A stretch of DNA of 44,117 bases from positions 1 through 44,117 of the IMG/VR virus record IMGVR_UViG_3300023106_000006, one strand, 5' to 3'. The translations under genes were made by a program, and so were the position numbers. A model generated the notes under the pieces. That model made no database searches, was not told the origin of the DNA, and worked only from the letters and a program-made list of their open reading frames with translations. Positions 886 through 44,117 of the stretch are shown piece after piece. The first letter of the stretch is position 1. The number at the start of each line of letters is the position of its first letter. The stretch is from a virus.

Positions 886-893
886 TATATTTC
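886..893 (+). promoter_or_regulatory. Candidate -7 element for the helicase leader
   Basis: TATATTTC differs from TATATTTG, the form most used in this genome, only at the last base. A second candidate, TATCTTTA, overlaps it at 880-887. No convincing TTG -33 box is seen. Which element is used decides whether the transcript starts just before or inside the pairing segment at 895-901. Confidence 0.45.
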
Positions 894-894
894 C

Positions 895-964
895 TCTGAC
901 GGTGAATAATAGCAATAGGCTAATAAATTATAAGCGTCAGAACTTTTAATTTATTAGTTTTTTT
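895..964 (+). ncRNA. Leader RNA 1: pseudoknotted terminator before the helicase gene
   Basis: A 10-bp stem, CTAATAAATT/AATTTATTAG (920-929 with 948-957), is followed by seven T (958-964) and forms an intrinsic-terminator-like hairpin four bases before the helicase start codon. Its 18-nt loop contains CGTCAGA (935-941), the exact reverse complement of TCTGACG at 895-901 upstream. The RNA can thus fold as a loop-to-5'-end pseudoknot. I see no promoter between terminator and gene, so helicase expression should require read-through. The 5' segment is not clearly inside its own hairpin here, unlike the other family members. Attenuator function is inferred. Confidence 0.7.
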
Positions 965-2879: not shown

Positions 2880-3036
2880 ACAACAGTCGGGGTAGATGAT
2901 GTCAGAGGCTGAAATCTTGATTGTTGTTGTTTTTAAATAAGCTTTTCGGATTGGTGGATTCGAAAAATAAAGATACATTAACTTAATCGGTTAAGGGAGT
3001 AGTTGCCACCACAGCGAAACCTAACCGATTTTTTTT
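2880..3036 (+). ncRNA. Leader RNA 2: kissing-loop terminator before GIY-YIG gene
   Basis: The leader starts near 2880. It can form an outer ACAACA/TGTTGT pairing, then a hairpin TTTTCG/CGAAAA (2943-2948 with 2961-2966) whose 12-nt loop carries TGGTGG (2952-2957). The terminator stem AATCGGTTA/TAACCGATT (2985-2993 with 3022-3030) ends in a T-run to 3036, and its loop carries CCACCA (3006-3011), complementary to that TGGTGG. The start codon of the GIY-YIG gene follows at 3041. This is the longest member of the leader family. The terminator is clear; the kissing pair is only 6 bp, so that part is less certain. Confidence 0.65.
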
Positions 3037-6929: not shown

Positions 6930-7313
6930 ATGGCCTACGATAAAGAAAAAATATTCTCAGACGCAAAGCAATTAATCGAAGATGAAAACTTATATTTCAT
7001 CGAAGATATTGTTTCGTTATTGCCACTAACAAAGCCTACATTCTACGACTTTTTCCAGGTTGATTCTAACGAACTTAACGAACTAAAAGGAATGTTAGAT
7101 AAAAACCGTGTTTCTGCCAAATCTCAAATGCGTAAGAAGTGGAAAGATGCTGAAGCTCCAGCACTGCAAATTGCCTTAATGAAACTTATTTGCACCGATG
7201 AAGAAGCGCACAGGTTGAACGGATCTAAAACCGTAAACGAAAACATAAACCAAAATGTACCTGTTCTAAACAACGATCCGTTATCAGATGCAGACAACGA
7301 CAGCACTACGTAA
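6930..7313 (+). CDS. terS: Terminase small subunit (putative)
   Basis: This 127-residue helical protein lies directly before and overlaps the large terminase. Residues 15-45 (LIEDENLYFIEDIVSLLPLTKPTFYDFF) look like a winged or helix-turn-helix DNA-binding segment, as in small terminases, followed by a central helix (NELNELKGMLDKNRVSAKSQ) and an Asn/Asp-rich disordered tail. Small terminases form a ring that recognises the packaging site. An upstream in-frame TTG at 6915 would add five residues but lies inside the promoter element, so ATG 6930 is preferred. Identification rests mainly on position and helical layout. Confidence 0.75.
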   Translation: MAYDKEKIFSDAKQLIEDENLYFIEDIVSLLPLTKPTFYDFFQVDSNELNELKGMLDKNRVSAKSQMRKKWKDAEAPALQIALMKLICTDEEAHRLNGSKTVNENINQNVPVLNNDPLSDADNDSTT

Positions 7314-8514
7314 GATATCGGCGTTAAGAAAGCGGATTTGGGGCATACAGGGCGGACAGGGGGCAGGGAAAACAATTTCCATTTTAATAATCCTGATAAA
7401 TCATGCTTCAGGGAATCCAAACAAAGAAATATACATAGCTTCTGACGAATTGTCAAAGATGCGGATTACCGTAATTAAAGACTTTGTTAAGGTAATGCAG
7501 TCATTTAACTTATTCAAGAAAGAATATTTTACTGACGGTACTCTTTACAGATTCCCTAACGGTAGTTTTATTAAGTTCCTAGGACTTGATAAAGTCGATA
7601 TTGGTAAGGGATTGCGTTCGGACATTATGTTTGTGAATGAGGCAAATAAATCAAAATTCGACACTTATCGTGAACTAACTTCAAGAGCGAAAAGGGTAAT
7701 TATTGACTTCAACCCGAACAAAAAGTTCTGGTTTCATACTGAAGTTGAAACACGAAACGATTGCGACTTTATTAAGTTAACCTACCTAGACAACGAATTT
7801 CTTTCAGATGAAGAGCGTGGAGAAATACTGCGTTACAAAGAAAAAGGTTTTGACGCAAACGGAGTTGTAATAAATCAGTATTGGGCGAACATGTGGAGGG
7901 TTTACGGTCTAGGGGAAGTTGGACAGGTAGAAGGGCGGATTTACAATTGGAAGCCTATACCTTACGATGAATATTTGAAAATTGACAAAACCAAATACTA
8001 TGGTTCGGATTGGGGAATGGTTGACCCTTGGGCGGTAGGAGAAATAAAATACCATGACGGAAATCTTTATGTCCATGAATTGAATTATGCAAGCGAAAAT
8101 GAAATCAGGCGTAACTTATCCCCTGCCGAATTGCATCAAATTAACGGAATTGATGAAGACGGTTTAGTCCCTTGGAAATTCAACAGATTAGGCGTTAGTA
8201 AAAACGCAGTTGTGGTTTGCGACAACAATAGGCCGAATAAAATTAAAGCATTAAGAAAGGCTGGCTGGGAATATGCTGTTGCGGTTGGAGGAAAAAGCAA
8301 ACTTTTAGACAGGATTGGAACGCTTCAGGGAATGAACATTTTTTACACTGACTGCAGTAAAAATATAGAGTATGAACAAGAGAATTTCTGTTACGCTAAA
8401 GACAAATTCGGGGTTATCCAAGAAGAGCCTGTAGATCAGGATAATCACCATATTGACGAAATTGCCTATGTTGTACAAAAATTATTCGATTTAGGCGTAA
8501 TTAAAAATATTTGA
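7288..8514 (+). CDS. terL: Terminase large subunit
   Basis: This 408-residue protein carries both terminase activities. The ATPase has Walker A GGQGAGKT near residues 21-28 and Walker B IMFVNEAN. The RNase H-like nuclease has acidic residues in GSDWG, VVCDNN and HHIDEIAY near the C-terminus. It drives genome packaging and cuts the concatemer. ATG 7288 overlaps the small terminase by 26 bases, typical of coupled terS-terL pairs. The protein is slightly short for the family but all motifs are present. It is followed by leader RNA 3. Confidence 0.95.
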   Translation: MQTTTALRKISALRKRIWGIQGGQGAGKTISILIILINHASGNPNKEIYIASDELSKMRITVIKDFVKVMQSFNLFKKEYFTDGTLYRFPNGSFIKFLGLDKVDIGKGLRSDIMFVNEANKSKFDTYRELTSRAKRVIIDFNPNKKFWFHTEVETRNDCDFIKLTYLDNEFLSDEERGEILRYKEKGFDANGVVINQYWANMWRVYGLGEVGQVEGRIYNWKPIPYDEYLKIDKTKYYGSDWGMVDPWAVGEIKYHDGNLYVHELNYASENEIRRNLSPAELHQINGIDEDGLVPWKFNRLGVSKNAVVVCDNNRPNKIKALRKAGWEYAVAVGGKSKLLDRIGTLQGMNIFYTDCSKNIEYEQENFCYAKDKFGVIQEEPVDQDNHHIDEIAYVVQKLFDLGVIKNI

Positions 8515-8515
8515 T

Positions 8516-8523
8516 TATATTTG
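8516..8523 (+). promoter_or_regulatory. Promoter -7 element for leader RNA 3
   Basis: TATATTTG immediately follows the terL stop codon. Initiation is expected near 8528. No clear TTG is at the -33 distance; TTAG is present. Confidence 0.6.
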
Positions 8524-8527
8524 CCAT

Positions 8528-8620
8528 TAACTGATGTGAAGATGCATCATCCCGAATGTATGAGAGATCAATTCAATATTAATTTACCGCTCCCGGCTTC
8601 ATTGTCGGCAGCGGTTTTTT
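8528..8620 (+). ncRNA. Leader RNA 3 between terL and portal, with loop-loop complementarity
   Basis: Hairpin 1 is TGATG/CATCA (8532-8536 with 8545-8549) with loop TGAAGATG. A second hairpin is possible at 8554-8574 (GAAT/ATTC plus TGA/TCA). The terminator stem ACCGCT/AGCGGT (8586-8591 with 8610-8615) is followed by six T, and its loop contains CTTCA (8597-8601), complementary to TGAAG (8537-8541) of loop 1. The portal start is 13 bases beyond the T-run. The layout is the same as leaders 4-6, but the kissing pair is only 5 bp, the weakest of the set. The terminator itself is clear. Confidence 0.6.
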
Positions 8621-8633
8621 ACTTTGGTAAATA

Positions 8634-9905
8634 ATGAATTGGTTTCAGAACACAATCGCCAGGACGTTCGGAATCCCTACGCTCGACGAGGTTGTGATGT
8701 ACGTAAACGACCAGATTAACGGAAGCACTAATTTTCAAAGCGCAACCGATGATAAAAATAAGTTGGAACGCATATTTAGCAATCCGGCTTTATTGAAGGT
8801 GTTCTGTTTACAATGCGATATGTTCAGCTTAGGTAAAGTTTACGTTTACCAAAACGGTAAAGCCTTAAAAACAGATCCGTTCCTTGACATGATTAAGCAG
8901 CCAAACCCGTTCCAAAGGGAAGCTCAATTTAAATGGGATTTCATGTTTTGGAACATGATCGGCAACACTTACGTTTATGCTGATTCTTATATTCCGGCAA
9001 TCGATAATAAGCTGTACATTCTGGAAAATCACAAAATGAAGTTCCCGACTGAAATGTTGACTTATCAGGATAAGATTGTGCTTTCTAAGTCAACAGAGGA
9101 TGCGATAAACAATTTTGACATTGAATATCGTTATGCTGATGGAACAGCAACCAATTTGAATTGGCGGTACATTATCCACAACCCAGACCTAAGCAACGGG
9201 ACAGGTAATTGGTTTGGAGGTCAAAGCCGGATTGATGCGCTTTACAAAATCGTAAGCAACTCCGAAAGAGCAATCGAGGCAAAGAATGTGAATTTGCAGT
9301 ATTCAGCTAAGTTTCTGGTAGCAGGACAGGCAGATCCGGGTAATATCGACCAACTTCCAATGGGCGAACAGGAAAAGCGGGACATTGAAACTAAAATGAA
9401 CGGACGTAAGCGTGTCTATGCCATTAAAAGCATGATCGACATACAAAGGTTCGTTTCTGACATTGGGGCGTTAAAATTAGACGACAGTTACCTGGCAGAC
9501 TATTTTACAATTGGATCGATGTACGGCATACCTAAGGACGTTTTAGAAGCCTTCAACTCGGGAACGTATGAGAACCAGGAAAAGGCAAGAGGCGCGTTCG
9601 TTTCTTACTGCTTGCAGCCAAAAGGTAACGGTTGGTTTGAAAGCCTTGCAAGTTTCTTCGGGTACACAGATAAAACAATCCTGATCGATTGGGAACATTT
9701 GCCGTTTATGCAAGTTTTCGCCAAGGAAAGAGCCGAAACGGATAAAATTAAATCTGAAACTCTGCTTAATTACATGAAAGCCGGGGTTACAATGGATCAG
9801 ATCAACGAAATGTTGGATATGGAATTAAGAGAATTAAATTATGAAACAGCAAATAGAGCCGCAAGCACCCAACAGCAAAACGCACAAGAAAGTCAAAAAG
9901 TCTGA
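8634..9905 (+). CDS. Portal protein
   Basis: The 423-residue product has the HK97-type portal pattern: an N-terminal helical segment, SLGKVYVYQNGK followed by a FLDMIKQPNPFQREAQFKWDFMFWNMIGNTYVY core, a central EAKNVNLQYSAKFLVAGQ wing helix, and a Gln-rich disordered tail. Portals form the dodecameric channel at one capsid vertex where terminase docks. Its place between terL and the prohead protease fits exactly. Expression probably depends on read-through of the leader RNA 3 terminator, or on transcription arriving from terL. Confidence 0.88.
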   Translation: MNWFQNTIARTFGIPTLDEVVMYVNDQINGSTNFQSATDDKNKLERIFSNPALLKVFCLQCDMFSLGKVYVYQNGKALKTDPFLDMIKQPNPFQREAQFKWDFMFWNMIGNTYVYADSYIPAIDNKLYILENHKMKFPTEMLTYQDKIVLSKSTEDAINNFDIEYRYADGTATNLNWRYIIHNPDLSNGTGNWFGGQSRIDALYKIVSNSERAIEAKNVNLQYSAKFLVAGQADPGNIDQLPMGEQEKRDIETKMNGRKRVYAIKSMIDIQRFVSDIGALKLDDSYLADYFTIGSMYGIPKDVLEAFNSGTYENQEKARGAFVSYCLQPKGNGWFESLASFFGYTDKTILIDWEHLPFMQVFAKERAETDKIKSETLLNYMKAGVTMDQINEMLDMELRELNYETANRAASTQQQNAQESQKV

Positions 9906-10610: not shown

Positions 10611-11876
10611 ATGGATGAAGTAACAAAAGCGGCAGAGGAATTGAAAGGTCAGATCGAAGGATTTAAAACCGAACTTACCAAAGCAGCTACCAAAGAAGAA
10701 TTCAAATCTTTAGAATCAAAGATTGAAGAATTCGTAAAAGCTAACAAAGTTGACGAAAATCTTGAAGCTACTGTGAAAGAGCTAAAAGAACAGTTGGCTA
10801 TCGTAAAGGAAAACACACACGTGTTCCAGGCAGCGGGCGACGACCTTTTTACGGTTATCGAAAAAGGATTGAAAGACTTTTTACCAAAAGTAAAAGAGAT
10901 TTCACAAAAGAACGGATCAAGCGAGAAAGCATGGGAATTGGAGCTTGAAATTAAAGCCCCAATCAACATGGCTACAACCGCCATTACAAACAACTCGGCT
11001 ACTCCGGTAAATTATGTTTATCAGCAAGTTACCGATTACATGGCTGATCCAAGAGCGCGTCAGTACATTTTGCCTTACCTTTCAAACGGTAACACAAACA
11101 AAGCTTCACTTCCTTACATGGATAAAATCCCAACGGAAGGAACAATGGCGATTACAGCAGAAGGCGCATTGAAACCGCTCATTTCTGTATCCTTTGTTTT
11201 GCGTTATTCGACTGCTAAGAAAATGGCCGGGCGTACTAAAATCTCCGAAGAGGCATTGGACGATATCCCGAACATCATGTCAATCATCCGCAACGAATTG
11301 GTTTACCAACACGATATTGCGGTTCAGGCTGACGTTTTTACATTCGTATCGGCATTCGCTCCGGCGTTTGTAGCTGGGGATTTGGCTGCATCAACCGAAG
11401 CACCGAACAACTACGACGTTATCCGTGCTGCTGCTTACGCAATCAAAATCGCATCAAAAGGTATGTTTATCCCTAACGCTGCGGTTATTCCAAGTGCAGA
11501 TGTTTACGAAATGGGAGCGACTAAAGATGCAAACGAAAATTATGTATTGCCTCCTTTCGTATTGCCTGACGGTACACGTGTTGAAGGTATGGCTATCATC
11601 GAAGATCCTTACGGAATCGTAGCGGCAGGAAACTTCATTGTTGGCGACTGGAAACAAATTCACCGTGACGTTTACAAATCGTTTACCGTTCGTATCGGAC
11701 AGGGTATTGTTGGGAACGCAACAGCGGCCAACATCGTTTCTGATTTTGAATCGAATATGTACACGATCATTGGAGAAAGCCGTTACCACTTATGGGGTTA
11801 CGAAAACGCAAAAGTTGCATTCGTTGACGGATCATTCGCTGCGGTTAAAACAGCAATCGAACTGGAAGTAGTTTAA
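10611..11876 (+). CDS. Major capsid protein (HK97 fold, with N-terminal delta domain)
   Basis: The 421-residue product begins with about 90 residues of charged coiled coil (AAEELKGQIEGF through AIVKENTH), the delta/scaffold domain of HK97-type capsid proteins that the upstream protease removes. The rest is the HK97 fold: an N-arm, an E-loop segment (MAITAEGALKPLISVSFV with KKMAGRTKISEEALDD) and a P/A-domain with VIPSADVYEMGATKD and PDGTRVEGMAI. The gene uses a more GC-rich, regular codon set than its neighbours, as expected for a highly expressed gene. Confidence 0.93.
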   Translation: MDEVTKAAEELKGQIEGFKTELTKAATKEEFKSLESKIEEFVKANKVDENLEATVKELKEQLAIVKENTHVFQAAGDDLFTVIEKGLKDFLPKVKEISQKNGSSEKAWELELEIKAPINMATTAITNNSATPVNYVYQQVTDYMADPRARQYILPYLSNGNTNKASLPYMDKIPTEGTMAITAEGALKPLISVSFVLRYSTAKKMAGRTKISEEALDDIPNIMSIIRNELVYQHDIAVQADVFTFVSAFAPAFVAGDLAASTEAPNNYDVIRAAAYAIKIASKGMFIPNAAVIPSADVYEMGATKDANENYVLPPFVLPDGTRVEGMAIIEDPYGIVAAGNFIVGDWKQIHRDVYKSFTVRIGQGIVGNATAANIVSDFESNMYTIIGESRYHLWGYENAKVAFVDGSFAAVKTAIELEVV

Positions 11877-12195: not shown

Positions 12196-12873
12196 ATGGC
12201 ATACTTAATAGACGACACTTTTTTTATTGGGAGCATAGAAGTTCCTAATCTCGATGAAGCAAATTCAAAGTCTTTAACGGCTTTGAATAGAATCATCGAT
12301 GAAAAGTGTCGTTTGTTATTGTTGTCGGCTTTAGGTCTTTTAAACTTTCAGGAAATGGATAGTTTTCTGGTTAACGGAAAATTACCCGATGTTCCTGAAT
12401 CGCCTGAAGTAGATCCGGTTCCGGCGAAGTGGCGTAATTTAATCACTGGTTGTAATTATACCGTTGACACAGTTACAAAACGATGGAAGGGATTGTACTT
12501 TACAGAAGGATCGTTTAAAGGTTCCGTATTGGCGAATTACTGCTTTACCTTCTGGTTACAGGAAAACGTTTCTTATCAAAGTGGTGTTGGAGAGGTTAAG
12601 GCCGAGGCTAAAAATACATTCGGTGTAAACTCTACTCAGAAATACACAACGGTATGGAATGAATTTCTTTCAATGTACCAGGGTTCGGACTGTTCGAGAA
12701 GATTAGGCAATGTTTATCATGTTGGAATTCCGCAGTATGACGGCTATTATGTCGGATATTTCGGAAATAACAACAACGATGTTTCTTTGCTTCAGTTCTT
12801 ATCCGAAAACGCTACTGATTATCCGGACTGCGAATTGTGCGTTTACGACGTAAAAAATCAGTTAGGATTATGA
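12196..12873 (+). CDS. Putative head-tail connector/adaptor protein
   Basis: This 225-residue protein in the connector slot is mainly helical at the start (TALNRIIDEKCRLLLLSALGLLNF) with a Trp-rich centre (KWRNLITGCNY, TKRWKGLYF, YCFTFWLQENVSYQSGVGEV). DUF6712-like proteins at this site in Bacteroidota phages have a similar look, but I cannot confirm membership. Its stop overlaps the next start (ATGA). Confidence 0.72.
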   Translation: MAYLIDDTFFIGSIEVPNLDEANSKSLTALNRIIDEKCRLLLLSALGLLNFQEMDSFLVNGKLPDVPESPEVDPVPAKWRNLITGCNYTVDTVTKRWKGLYFTEGSFKGSVLANYCFTFWLQENVSYQSGVGEVKAEAKNTFGVNSTQKYTTVWNEFLSMYQGSDCSRRLGNVYHVGIPQYDGYYVGYFGNNNNDVSLLQFLSENATDYPDCELCVYDVKNQLGL

Positions 12874-21751: not shown

Positions 21752-21867
21752 ACTGAAATATAACAAGCGGAATATTAGAGGGATTCCAATTGTACGATAT
21801 ACAGAGTTGAATTAATAGTTTAACTTCTGAAACCGTGACCCGACGAACCTCTAATTTGTCGGGTTTT
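21752..21867 (+). ncRNA. Leader RNA 4: three-hairpin RNA with 8-bp kissing loops
   Basis: Hairpin 1 is GGAAT/ATTCC (21769-21773 with 21783-21787) and exposes the nine-base loop ATTAGAGGG. A middle hairpin pairs CAGA/TCTG and GTT/AAC within 21802-21829. The terminator-type hairpin ACCCGAC/GTCGGGT (21838-21844 with 21858-21864) has a 13-nt loop carrying CCTCTAAT (21848-21855), the exact reverse complement of ATTAGAGG (21774-21781). The T-run has only four bases, so termination may be leaky. The gene start follows at 21892. With leader 6 this is the clearest case of the family. Confidence 0.75.
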
Positions 21868-29624: not shown

Positions 29625-29718
29625 ACTGTTTTATCGGCTCGAAACGTCTAACAGTCAATTATCAAACTATTTAATTTGATAGGGAAAACCCGTAGCATTC
29701 GAGTGTTGCGGGTTTTTT
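29625..29718 (+). ncRNA. Leader RNA 5: three-hairpin kissing-loop terminator RNA
   Basis: Hairpin 1 is ACTGTT/AACAGT (29625-29630 with 29650-29655) with GCTCGAA in its loop (29637-29643). Hairpin 2 is TATCAAA/TTTGATA (29660-29666 with 29675-29681). The terminator hairpin pairs 29687-29697 with 29704-29714 (11 bp including two G-T pairs) and has the hexaloop TTCGAG (29698-29703), exactly complementary to CTCGAA of loop 1. Six T close it at 29718. The gene starts at 29740. The promoter, hairpin 2 and the GTGTTG beside the terminator stem resemble leader 6, so the two are probably paralogous. Confidence 0.8.
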
Positions 29719-31089: not shown

Positions 31090-32868
31090 ATGAAAAAACT
31101 AATTATCCTCCTACTTTTCCCAATCCTTACTTTCGCCCAATGGACAAAACAACAATCCAAAGCAGGCGAACCGAGTTACGGACTTAATATACCAGCGTTC
31201 ACAAAACAACTGAACGCTAAAAAAGCAACCGTTCCCGACGCATCCGGAAATTTATCGCAGTACGCACTTATTGAAGACTTCAACTTTGCTGATGATAAGA
31301 TTGCAAAGAAATACGGACTTCGGAGTTTTCACGGATTTGACAAAGACGGGCGTTCGATTAGCATTGCAGTTTCAAAAGAAGGCGTTGAGGCAACAATTAC
31401 GGATTCCCTACAAACGTTTGTACAGCCAACAGGCAATGGTTATAAGATAGGCCGGGTAGAAAGCAAAAGGGAGTTTTCCTGCGATGTTGACGAAAGGCAA
31501 ATTATATCTGATTTTACGGAGCGTGCCAAAGTAAATCAAAAAGCTGCAGCTGTCAGGGGCGATATTACCATACTTCGGGTTGCAATGTCCTTTACTGCAG
31601 AATTCGTTCAGAGATTAGGAGGTACGCAAGAGAAAGTATTTACCTGGCAAAACAGGGTTCTTACAAACGTGAATTCCACTTTTAGAAAAGAATTAGCTGC
31701 AGTTGTGCAATTGGTTCCGGGAAACGAAAAGTTAATATTCTATTCCAAAACAAAAGATTATCCATTTACACATACAGGTAATTATGCTGCAGAAAATCAA
31801 AAATTAGTAGATGCAAAAATAGGAACGGCCAATTACGATATGGCTTGCGTTTACGGATTGGGTATTGGAGGGAATGCAACGAAAGTCGGTTCAGTTACTG
31901 ATCCGTTATTCAAAGGGCAATGTTTTGTTTTGTATTTAGATCCCGCAAACGCAAAAGATGATTTTAATGTAAATACGCACGAATGGGGGCATCAGGTTAA
32001 CGGAATCCATACCAGAAGTTACGTTGTAGGCACCGGAAATGTAGAACCAGGCAGCGGAGTAACCATAATGAGCCATGCGGGGGCGGCTCCCGCAGCTTAT
32101 AACGTTGCTGCAAATTCATCACCAATATTTCATCCTTCATCTGCAGTTCGCATAATTCAGTATTTATCTACATTGCCTTTAGGGAGTATTACGACCGGGA
32201 ATAGAAAGCCTACGGTTAACGCTGGAGCTGATAGGGTAATTGAAGCCGATACGCCATTTTCATTATCTGCAGTCACTTCCGATCCGGACGGCGATAAAGT
32301 CACAATTAGAATTGCACAAATTGATCTGACACCGCCACTATTTACCAAACCAAACAGATTAAATTATTCGGGTGCGCTGCAGCTTGTTTCTGCAGATACG
32401 CAAACGGGATATGTGAATTTCACAAATAACGGTACTTGGAATGTGTTGCCAGGAATACCGCGAACTATGAATTTCAGGGTTTTTGCAATGGACGGAAAAG
32501 GCGGCGTTGCTTGGGATGATATTAAAGTTACAGTTATTCCAAAGCAAATACCCGTCAGCAATGCGCCGATTCTATCATACGTTCCCGGATCGCTCACCAA
32601 AACAAGCGTTAAATTACAATGGAGTGTTCCGGTTAATTTTCCCGTTACCGAGTATTCAATTTACAGAAACCCGACGTGTGATAATTCAGAAAAGGCGGGA
32701 GCAGCGTGTGAAAATTACCTTACAAAAACCACAAACACATTTATAACCGTAACATTCAATGCAGCCGATAAACTCAAAGGCAGCGTGATATACGTTGTTA
32801 AAGGCAAAAATTCAGACGGTTGGCGAACTGAAAAAAGTAATAGTTTGATGGTTGAGATTCCGAAATAA
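31090..32868 (+). CDS. Secreted reprolysin-like metalloprotease with Ig-like and fibronectin III domains
   Basis: This 592-residue protein has signal peptide KKLIILLLFPILTFAQ with Gln at the new N-terminus, then a propeptide-like region. The metzincin catalytic domain has HEWGHQVNGIH at 297-307, all three zinc-binding His and the Glu present. A Met-turn (VTIMSHAG) follows about 20 residues later. Next come an Ig/PKD-like domain (KPTVNAGADRVIEADTPFSL, SDPDGDKVTI) and a fibronectin III-type domain (TKTSVKLQWSVPVNFPVTEY). The layout matches secreted Bacteroidota reprolysins, but the type IX sorting domain is missing and the usual Gly at motif position 8 is Asn. Such a protease is very unusual in a phage genome. 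Confidence 0.86.
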   Translation: MKKLIILLLFPILTFAQWTKQQSKAGEPSYGLNIPAFTKQLNAKKATVPDASGNLSQYALIEDFNFADDKIAKKYGLRSFHGFDKDGRSISIAVSKEGVEATITDSLQTFVQPTGNGYKIGRVESKREFSCDVDERQIISDFTERAKVNQKAAAVRGDITILRVAMSFTAEFVQRLGGTQEKVFTWQNRVLTNVNSTFRKELAAVVQLVPGNEKLIFYSKTKDYPFTHTGNYAAENQKLVDAKIGTANYDMACVYGLGIGGNATKVGSVTDPLFKGQCFVLYLDPANAKDDFNVNTHEWGHQVNGIHTRSYVVGTGNVEPGSGVTIMSHAGAAPAAYNVAANSSPIFHPSSAVRIIQYLSTLPLGSITTGNRKPTVNAGADRVIEADTPFSLSAVTSDPDGDKVTIRIAQIDLTPPLFTKPNRLNYSGALQLVSADTQTGYVNFTNNGTWNVLPGIPRTMNFRVFAMDGKGGVAWDDIKVTVIPKQIPVSNAPILSYVPGSLTKTSVKLQWSVPVNFPVTEYSIYRNPTCDNSEKAGAACENYLTKTTNTFITVTFNAADKLKGSVIYVVKGKNSDGWRTEKSNSLMVEIPK

Positions 32869-32880
32869 GTTGTATGTTTG
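32852..32880 (+). promoter_or_regulatory. Promoter for leader RNA 6
   Basis: TTG at 32852-32854 and TATGTTTG at 32873-32880 are separated by 18 bases, identical in format to the promoter of leader 5. The expected start is A32885, the first base of the hairpin 1 stem. Confidence 0.8.
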
Positions 32881-32884
32881 CGAT

Positions 32885-32973
32885 ACGTTAAAGACGGCTA
32901 CCTTAAACGTAAAAATTAAACTAACAATTTAATTGGATAAAAGTCCCTTCATGTAGCCGTGTTGGGACTTTTT
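32885..32973 (+). ncRNA. Leader RNA 6: three-hairpin RNA with 8-bp kissing loops before the Dam gene
   Basis: Hairpin 1 pairs ACGTT/AACGT (32885-32889 with 32906-32910) and, after an A-A mismatch, AAG/CTT, leaving exactly the eight-base loop ACGGCTAC (32894-32901). Hairpin 2 is AATTAAA/TTTAATT (32914-32920 with 32928-32934). The terminator stem AAAAGTCCC/GGGACTTTT (32939-32947 with 32964-32972) has a 16-nt loop with GTAGCCGT (32953-32960), the perfect complement of loop 1. The methyltransferase start follows at 32985. This is the best-formed member of the family. A regulatory or small-RNA role is inferred. Confidence 0.82.
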
Positions 32974-32984
32974 CTATTTATATT

Positions 32985-33443
32985 ATGGAACTTAAAAAAA
33001 ATGATTGTTTACAAACACCAAAATACATTACAGAAGCATTAGGTCCTTTTGATTTAGATCCGTGCGCAGGTTTAGACACTTTTATAGCAAATATAAATTT
33101 ATGGGACGGTAACGGAGAAGACGGATTAACATCTGAATGGAGCGGTTTTGTCTGGTGCAATCCGCCTTTTTCGCAAAAAGAAATTTGGGCAGAAAAGATG
33201 CTTAAACACGATAATGGCATTATGGTTTTGCCTGAAAGGGGATCTGCTCCTTGGTTTGGTCCATTATCTGAAAAACTTGGACGATATTTTGTTATGGGTA
33301 AAAAAATAAACTTTATAGGCGGCCCAAGTTCTAACAATTTAGGAAGTGTATTGTTTCCGTTTGGAGATCTTGCAGTCGAAAGAATAGAGAAATCAGGATT
33401 GCCAGGACACTTTGTTTCTGTTTTATGGTTTAAGGAAAGATAA
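32985..33443 (+). CDS. Phage N6-adenine methyltransferase (Dam-like)
   Basis: This 152-residue protein matches the small phage Dam family: CLQTPKYITEALGPFDLDPC at the start, the catalytic CNPPFSQ motif near residue 60, and the conserved IMVLPERGSAPWFG and RYFVMGKKINFIG segments. It transfers methyl groups to adenine in DNA, probably protecting phage DNA from host restriction or marking replicated DNA. Leader RNA 6 lies directly upstream and two promoter/terminator units follow, so its expression looks tightly controlled. Confidence 0.9.
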   Translation: MELKKNDCLQTPKYITEALGPFDLDPCAGLDTFIANINLWDGNGEDGLTSEWSGFVWCNPPFSQKEIWAEKMLKHDNGIMVLPERGSAPWFGPLSEKLGRYFVMGKKINFIGGPSSNNLGSVLFPFGDLAVERIEKSGLPGHFVSVLWFKER

Positions 33444-43373: not shown

Positions 43374-44117
43374 ATGTTACTATCAAGAGAAAAAAGAGAA
43401 GAGCAAATCGAATGGGATTTACACGAAACACAAGCGGAATTACCGCCAATGGAATTGGAATTATCCGGCACAGTAGATCCGGAAATATTCGGAATCGAAC
43501 CTGTAAAAGCTAAAGAAATGGTTAGCGGACTTACCGTTACATTATCAGAAAGGGAAGTTTTAAAATCGGCTTACGTGGATGTTATTGCACTTCCAATTAC
43601 TACTGAAAACCTAGCGACATTCAAAGAATTGCGTTTAAAAATCGTTAAGAACCGGACTCAGGGACTGAAGTCCTGGCACACGGCAAATAAGGCTTTTTAT
43701 CTTGCTGGTGGTCGTTTTGTTGACGCCATATACAACAAAGAAGTTATTGAAAACGAGCAAATGGAATCGAAATTGTTGGATGCTGAAAAGTATTTTGAAC
43801 AACAAGAACACGCTAGGCTTGCCGATCTTAAAAATGAGCGAGAAACCTTATTAGAACCATACGTTGATGCTGTACCGAATGACCTTCATACTTTGGATGC
43901 TGAGGTTTTCGATGCTTTTTTAGCAGCTAAAAAAGCCGCATACGCCGCAAAGATAGAAGCTGATAAATTAGAAGCTGAGAGAATTGAAAAAGAAGCCGCC
44001 GCCGAACGCGAACGCATTGAAGCACAAAGATTGGAAAACGAGCGTTTGAAAAAAGAAGCGGCCGCAAAGGAAGCGCAGATTTTAGCCGAAAGAGAAGCCG
44101 CAGCGAAAGCGCAAGCA
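43374..44117 (+). CDS. N-terminal part of the coiled-coil protein (continues at base 1, ends at 466)
   Basis: The start of the 360-residue protein lies one base after the bet stop codon. Residues about 25-160 form a globular region (TVDPEIFGIEPVKAKEMVSG, NLATFKELRLKIVKNRTQGL, HTANKAFYLAGGRFVDAIYN) resembling DUF1351-type phage proteins often found beside RecT/Bet. From about residue 165 the chain turns into an Ala/Glu/Arg/Lys coiled coil that crosses the contig junction. The frame is open to the end of the window and continues exactly at base 1. Direct contact with Bet is plausible but unproven. Confidence 0.85.
   Translation, partial: MLLSREKREEQIEWDLHETQAELPPMELELSGTVDPEIFGIEPVKAKEMVSGLTVTLSEREVLKSAYVDVIALPITTENLATFKELRLKIVKNRTQGLKSWHTANKAFYLAGGRFVDAIYNKEVIENEQMESKLLDAEKYFEQQEHARLADLKNERETLLEPYVDAVPNDLHTLDAEVFDAFLAAKKAAYAAKIEADKLEAERIEKEAAAERERIEAQRLENERLKKEAAAKEAQILAEREAAAKAQA
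43991..44117. repeat. Second copy of the 127-bp terminal overlap
   Basis: Identical to bases 1-127; see the first copy. When the circle is closed, one of the two copies should be removed. Confidence 0.95.

Follow-up and report, generated by a model that had tools for sequence, protein, structure and literature searches.

An apparently uncatalogued family of kissing-loop terminator leaders that probably sets whether early genes of Bacteroidota phages are read

Premature termination in replication-operon leaders is decided by RNA pairing in P4 immunity and in pT181 antisense attenuation, where the pairing partner is a separate processed or antisense RNA acting in trans. The put RNA of HK022 is a structured 5' leader that acts in cis, with terminators in the transcription path; it is conserved in sequence and acts on the polymerase over distance. 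In the guanidine-IV riboswitch (GGAM-1 or mepA motif), a kiss with the terminator loop arises while the terminator is still incomplete, impedes its stem and promotes read-through (PMC11611296, PMC10907184), and highly conserved bases of the loops form the ligand pocket (PMC7736828). In the cobalamin riboswitch a kiss, L5-L13, joins the expression-platform hairpin, through its loop, to a loop of the upstream domain (PMC10907184).

The leader described here lies at positions 32884-32979 of the window (the whole stretch of DNA analysed, a phage record of 44,117 bases). Like guanidine-IV, it has an upstream hairpin whose loop can kiss the terminator loop, over 8 bp in the window, in a family of 36 members and with covariation; unlike guanidine-IV, the loops of the family vary freely and form 7-9 plain Watson-Crick pairs that imply no ligand. 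Since the loops are not conserved and no Rfam match was obtained, the family was not assigned to guanidine-IV. Searches of Rfam at the gathering score gave no match in the window or in fifteen member-holding loci, and the guanidine family was absent among matches of the window leader to E 10. The Bacteroidete trp peptide leader (RF01692) was rejected for the window leader, at 23.5 bits against a cut-off of 49. The platform hairpin of the env8 cobalamin riboswitch hides the ribosome site and not a terminator, and its large ligand-binding core is absent from the family. As in P4-type immunity, terminators with internal complementary segments stand in leaders before primase and helicase genes, but the partner segment lies within the same short leader, unlike in P4 and pT181, and a trans RNA was not found. 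Unlike put-type RNA, members share a shape with no loop sequence conserved across them and no Rfam match. No description of such phage leaders was found in a library of 5.4 million open-licence papers.

The leader before the methyltransferase gene and its orthologs

The record carries an identical direct repeat of 127 bases at its two ends (1-127 and 43991-44117), as would be expected of a complete circular or terminally redundant phage genome. The gene content and the TAnnTTTG promoters suggest that the host belongs to the Bacteroidota. The features of the leader, and of other leaders discussed below, are listed in Table 1.

Table 1. Coordinates of leader elements and of leaders in the window and in Flavobacterium phage mumin6-4
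Feature	Position	Strand	Sequence or pairing	Basis or remark
Putative Bacteroidota promoter	32851..32880	+	GTTG 32851-32854, TATGTTTG 32873-32880	Sequence; kept at the orthologous locus in relatives
H1, 5' hairpin	32884..32911	+	Loop ACGGCTAC at 32894-32901	
H2, linker hairpin	32914..32934	+	AATTAAA-CTAACAA-TTTAATT	Stem varies on both sides in relatives
H3, predicted intrinsic terminator and U-tract	32939..32979	+	Stem 32939-32972; GTAGCCGT at 32953-32960 in the loop, partner of 32894-32901	
Dam-type N6-adenine methyltransferase gene, 152 aa	32985..33443	+		Pfam PF05869, PHROG 111
Leader before helicase gene (969)	888..957	+	TCTGACG 895-901 / CGTCAGA 935-941	Same pairing in L116
Leader before GIY-YIG gene (3041) and primase	2943..3030	+	TGGTGG 2952-2957 / CCACCA 3006-3011	
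Promoter-hairpin-terminator leader before portal gene (8634)	8532..8615	+	TGAAG/CTTCA, 5 bp	
Leader before ORF 21892	21769..21864	+	ATTAGAGG 21774-21781 / CCTCTAAT 21848-21855	
Possible weak member before GIY-YIG gene (29740)	29625..29716	+	CTCGAA / TTCGAG, 6 bp	
mumin6-4 member before NUMOD4/HNH endonuclease	11171-11248			
mumin6-4 member before gp036 and helicase gp037	12208-12305			

The H1 stem (TACGTT-A-AAG / CTT-A-AACGTA) has 9 pairs, a single A-A mismatch and an 8-nt loop, and begins four bases past TATGTTTG. The H3 stem (AAAAGTCCC / GGGACTTTT), also of 9 pairs, closes a 16-nt loop, TTCATGTAGCCGTGTT. The first-pass annotation had described the first loop as fully complementary to the terminator loop, and this was borne out: ACGGCTAC and GTAGCCGT form 8/8 Watson-Crick pairs, with a duplex energy of -12.3 kcal/mol, and the pairing covaries at orthologous loci (below). 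Its placement of the hairpin at the 5' end of the transcript likewise agrees with the predicted start, near 32884/32885, since the positions of TATGTTTG and GTTG match the Bacteroidota promoter consensus. A promoter upstream of the leader is thus plausible from its sequence; TAnnTTTG alone shows no excess over its chance frequency within the window. The ATG of the downstream gene follows the U-tract, and the gene was rightly named a Dam-type methylase (Pfam PF05869, E 1.2e-9). The upstream neighbour (31090-32868) encodes a 592-aa protein with a reprolysin-like metallopeptidase domain (Pfam PF13583), an unusual cargo at this phage size.

The fold of the whole leader was better than those of 200 shuffles (z -4.7), the 8-mer was regained in 196 of 1,000,000 shuffles of the terminator loop, and a loose scan of the window ranked ACGGCTAC/GTAGCCGT first among its loop pairs. 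Because the shuffle odds for a single leader (~2/10,000) are insufficient for a whole window, relatives were compared. The orthologous locus was found in five related phages, after the same upstream gene, with the flanks, the promoter and the TTGGATAAA spacer nearly constant. Covariation was taken from anchored sequences, because a tool-made alignment of the three loop alleles misplaces the loops. The alleles are ACGGCTAC/GTAGCCGT (window and L114), TCGCTAC/GTAGCGA (L111 and L113) and CTCGACA/TGTCGAG (L112, L115 and, by reading, G003), and all three are self-complementary within each version. The H2 stem also occurs in versions with both sides altered (AATTAAA/TTTAATT, AATTAAG/CTTAATT and AATTAGA/TCTAATT). 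Chance was ruled out for the 32884 locus by the covariation there, and on these comparative grounds it is close to certain that the loop-loop pairing is real.

The gene behind the leader at this locus differs by phage: a methylase in the window, a radical SAM gene in G002, and unrelated ORFs in G001, G004 and L111. A variable cargo slot was seen behind the leader in the window (32985-33443) and in L072, L075, L081, L111 and L112; in L075 it holds a radical SAM protein with a CPVGCRFC motif (7257-8189). Inspection by eye showed no such leader upstream of methylase homologs in other phages, which means that it is not carried along with the methylase gene; since the downstream gene varies among phages, the leader serves the slot and not the methylase. 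The methylase-specific role given to it by the first-pass annotation was accordingly not upheld, as other members also precede helicases, primases and homing endonucleases; timing of the methylase for restriction protection is a guess, and the earlier interpretation as a whole is partly supported.

Distribution of the leaders in phages

The same anatomy recurs before phage primase and helicase genes: a TAnnTTTG promoter, a hairpin with a 7-10-nt loop, a linker, a terminator with a loop complementary to that of the hairpin, and a start codon, the last about 10-26 nt past the terminator in nearly all members. Loose scans for loop complementarity near any terminator were swamped by chance, and for this reason the criteria were tightened, and shuffles and a set defined by homology were brought in. 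The homology set was built from regions 5' of phage primase and helicase genes, chosen by protein homology only, plus the 32884 locus, and comprised 33 distinct leaders in which a terminator lies close to the start codon. In 13 of the 33 the two loops matched over at least 7 bp (0.7 expected when terminators were swapped among leaders) and in 17 over at least 6 bp (2.7 expected); neither count was reached in any of 20,000 permutations.

The whole of the fetched sequence (212 loci, 4.4 million strand-bases) was scanned for a promoter, an H1 whose loop measures 7-10 nt, a terminator holding 7 or more bases complementary to that loop, and a start codon. The scan gave 42 distinct matches, against 2 to 11 in each of ten dinucleotide shuffles and 11, 9 and 3 in wrong-sense controls (same sequence, reversed, complement only). 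Six matches, without a close ORF or coding-like, were set aside, and 36 were judged clear. These carry 27 distinct kissing sequences, with a median loop of 8 nt and a median H1 start 4 nt after the promoter motif. Unpaired loop bases lay almost always on the 5' side (17 vs 2, p 0.0007; 10/10, p 2e-5), as expected for kissing hairpins; this placement was no criterion of the search. Because relatives preserve the pairing where both loops differ, the kissing-loop terminator leaders are a real RNA switch family of Bacteroidota phages, apparently uncatalogued, which probably determines whether early genes are expressed.

Further leaders were found in the window (Table 1). The one before the helicase gene has a weak H1 stem and an AT-rich terminator, and the terminator of the possible member at 29625 is able to close down to a 4-nt loop. 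In a cross table of loops and terminators, the own terminator was best or equal best for each leader (diagonal 7, 6, 5, 8, 6, 8; off-diagonal at most 6). The portal leader (8516-8634), weak in its pairing, was rejected as a member and is probably of a different type, perhaps a second class of leader: relatives (L010-L034) keep the terminator and the hairpin, the latter in versions that differ between groups (TGATGTGAAGATGCATCA, TTGATGCGATATCAA and ATGTTGTGAAACAT), and have no clear loop pairing.

Flavobacterium phage mumin6-4 (MN812223), a cultured phage, carries two members, at 11171 and 12208, which recur in 34 and 46 phage records, respectively. At the second position the loop pairs are GTGGAACG/CGTTCCAC in mumin, GTGAGACG/CGTCTCAC in lillamy and GTGAGAAG/CTTCTCAC in morran, within a 136-nt leader that is, in the latter two, 91% and 81% identical to the first. 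These loops are an orthologous series of clean compensatory changes. No convincing member was seen in the stretches from Olleya Harreka_1, elemoF, phi46:1, P12024S and the Manatee Spring podovirus; a scan of genome contigs gave only two distant primase relatives, neither of whose contigs matched in the tight scan.

In several primase and helicase leaders (L117-L119, L126, L127 and L166) the terminator loop is complementary to a CTCTCTGA-like segment at the 5' terminus, without a good H1 stem, and these leaders may be a simpler version of the device; the constant feature is therefore pairing of the RNA 5' end with the terminator loop. A reduced leader stands before the helicase in L120 and L121, where the promoter TATATTTG is directly followed by AAAGCCCTAAATTAATAGGGCTTTTTTT and then ATG, with no upstream hairpin. 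Genes after members encode ResIII/Helicase_C helicases, a PIF1-like helicase, primases with a BT4734-like domain, HNH/NUMOD4 endonucleases, a DNA methylase, a KilA-N protein and unknown proteins, as well as GIY-YIG endonucleases in the window.

Models for the action of the loop pair

As the terminator lies between promoter and start codon, it must be passed for the gene to be expressed, and its loop leaves the polymerase earlier than its 3' arm. A proxy for co-transcriptional folding was applied to the 36 members, in which the last 14 nt at the end of the U-tract were hidden during nested minimum-energy folding. Loop pairing was then formed in 29 members and the terminator stem in 2, although hiding 14 nt favours early pairings whatever the terminator and nested folding cannot depict H1 together with the kiss. 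With the full RNA the terminator was formed in 34 of the 36 and the loop pair in 1; for the window leader the fold switched between 32975 and 32983. In the nested minimum-energy fold of that leader an inner hairpin (CAUG-UAGC-CGUG) takes up part of GTAGCCGT and is therefore a local competitor for the kiss in the finished RNA.

From the loop pairing ahead of the terminator stem, together with the guanidine-IV precedent, we propose that the element is a transcription attenuator acting in cis, in which loop pairing before terminator closure would favour read-through; we give this reading a probability of about one half. The polymerase would start at the TAnnTTTG promoter and the RNA would fold immediately into H1. 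The terminator-loop segment would then pair with the H1 loop, as a kissing helix of 7-9 bp, while the 3' arm of the terminator has still to emerge. Such a kiss may delay closure of the lower terminator stem, so that some polymerases reach the gene 10-26 nt downstream; without it the polymerase would stop and release a short RNA, the leader, some 90 nt long. Transcription of the leaders, a functional terminator and a kiss that works against termination, not for it, are inferences. No signal that gates the loop pairing was found.

A rather unlikely alternative is that the kiss strengthens the terminator, or locks the terminated RNA as a compact, stable small RNA, with the gene off by default or expressed only by leakage or from another promoter. 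The median linker span was estimated at 93 Å against 87 Å for a coaxial rod, and the span was shorter than the rod in 15 of the 36 members only. As the two are similar, geometry does not force competition, a kiss and a closed terminator can coexist in principle, and geometry was rejected as proof of competition. The match of span and rod favours the terminator-strengthening alternative, as do kissing loops whose one or two unpaired 5' bases allow both stems to be closed, and an RNA 5' end within H1 in most members. Against it, the distance of the start codon from the terminator suits read-through in nearly all members, and pairing removes the terminator loop from its hairpin before the 3' arm emerges.

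It is quite unlikely that the private loop pairs also act in trans, a released leader RNA binding a nascent leader of the same specificity to give copy-number feedback or P4-like superinfection immunity. Loops that change with complementarity kept and flanks almost constant would fit such action, as would the mutual distinctness of the window leaders and the many members that stand before replication genes; yet cis pairing should win over trans pairing, and a complementary free RNA was not found. A phage-wide code, in which private loop pairs diversify from sister leaders and rival phages and released RNAs shut or open the matching leader of a newcomer, is equally doubtful.

Recognition of the folded leader by a phage or host protein, or by RNA polymerase itself, which would then pass terminators as in nut and put systems, is very unlikely. 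It would suit this reading that one phage carries several leaders, placed ahead of separate transcription units, and that shape is retained without sequence, but loops and stems offer no conserved sequence for a protein to read, and no candidate regulator was identified. Chance complementarity of two unrelated hairpins is scarcely credible: a single 8-mer match has odds of ~2e-4 per loop pair and the window has many pairs, but against it stand the statistics of the family and the compensation of loop changes at orthologous loci.

One known riboswitch class uses a kiss between leader and terminator loops as a ligand-controlled switch; in the present leaders the kiss takes the form of simple base pairing, without conserved sequence. 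Many Bacteroidota phages carry such leaders ahead of replication genes, DNA methylases and homing endonucleases, and the family was missed by sequence-based family searches because its loops change freely. If the leaders work as the proposed cis attenuator, they would give these phages a simple and modular control of early genes, and would offer a ready set of orthogonal terminators for Bacteroidota genetics.
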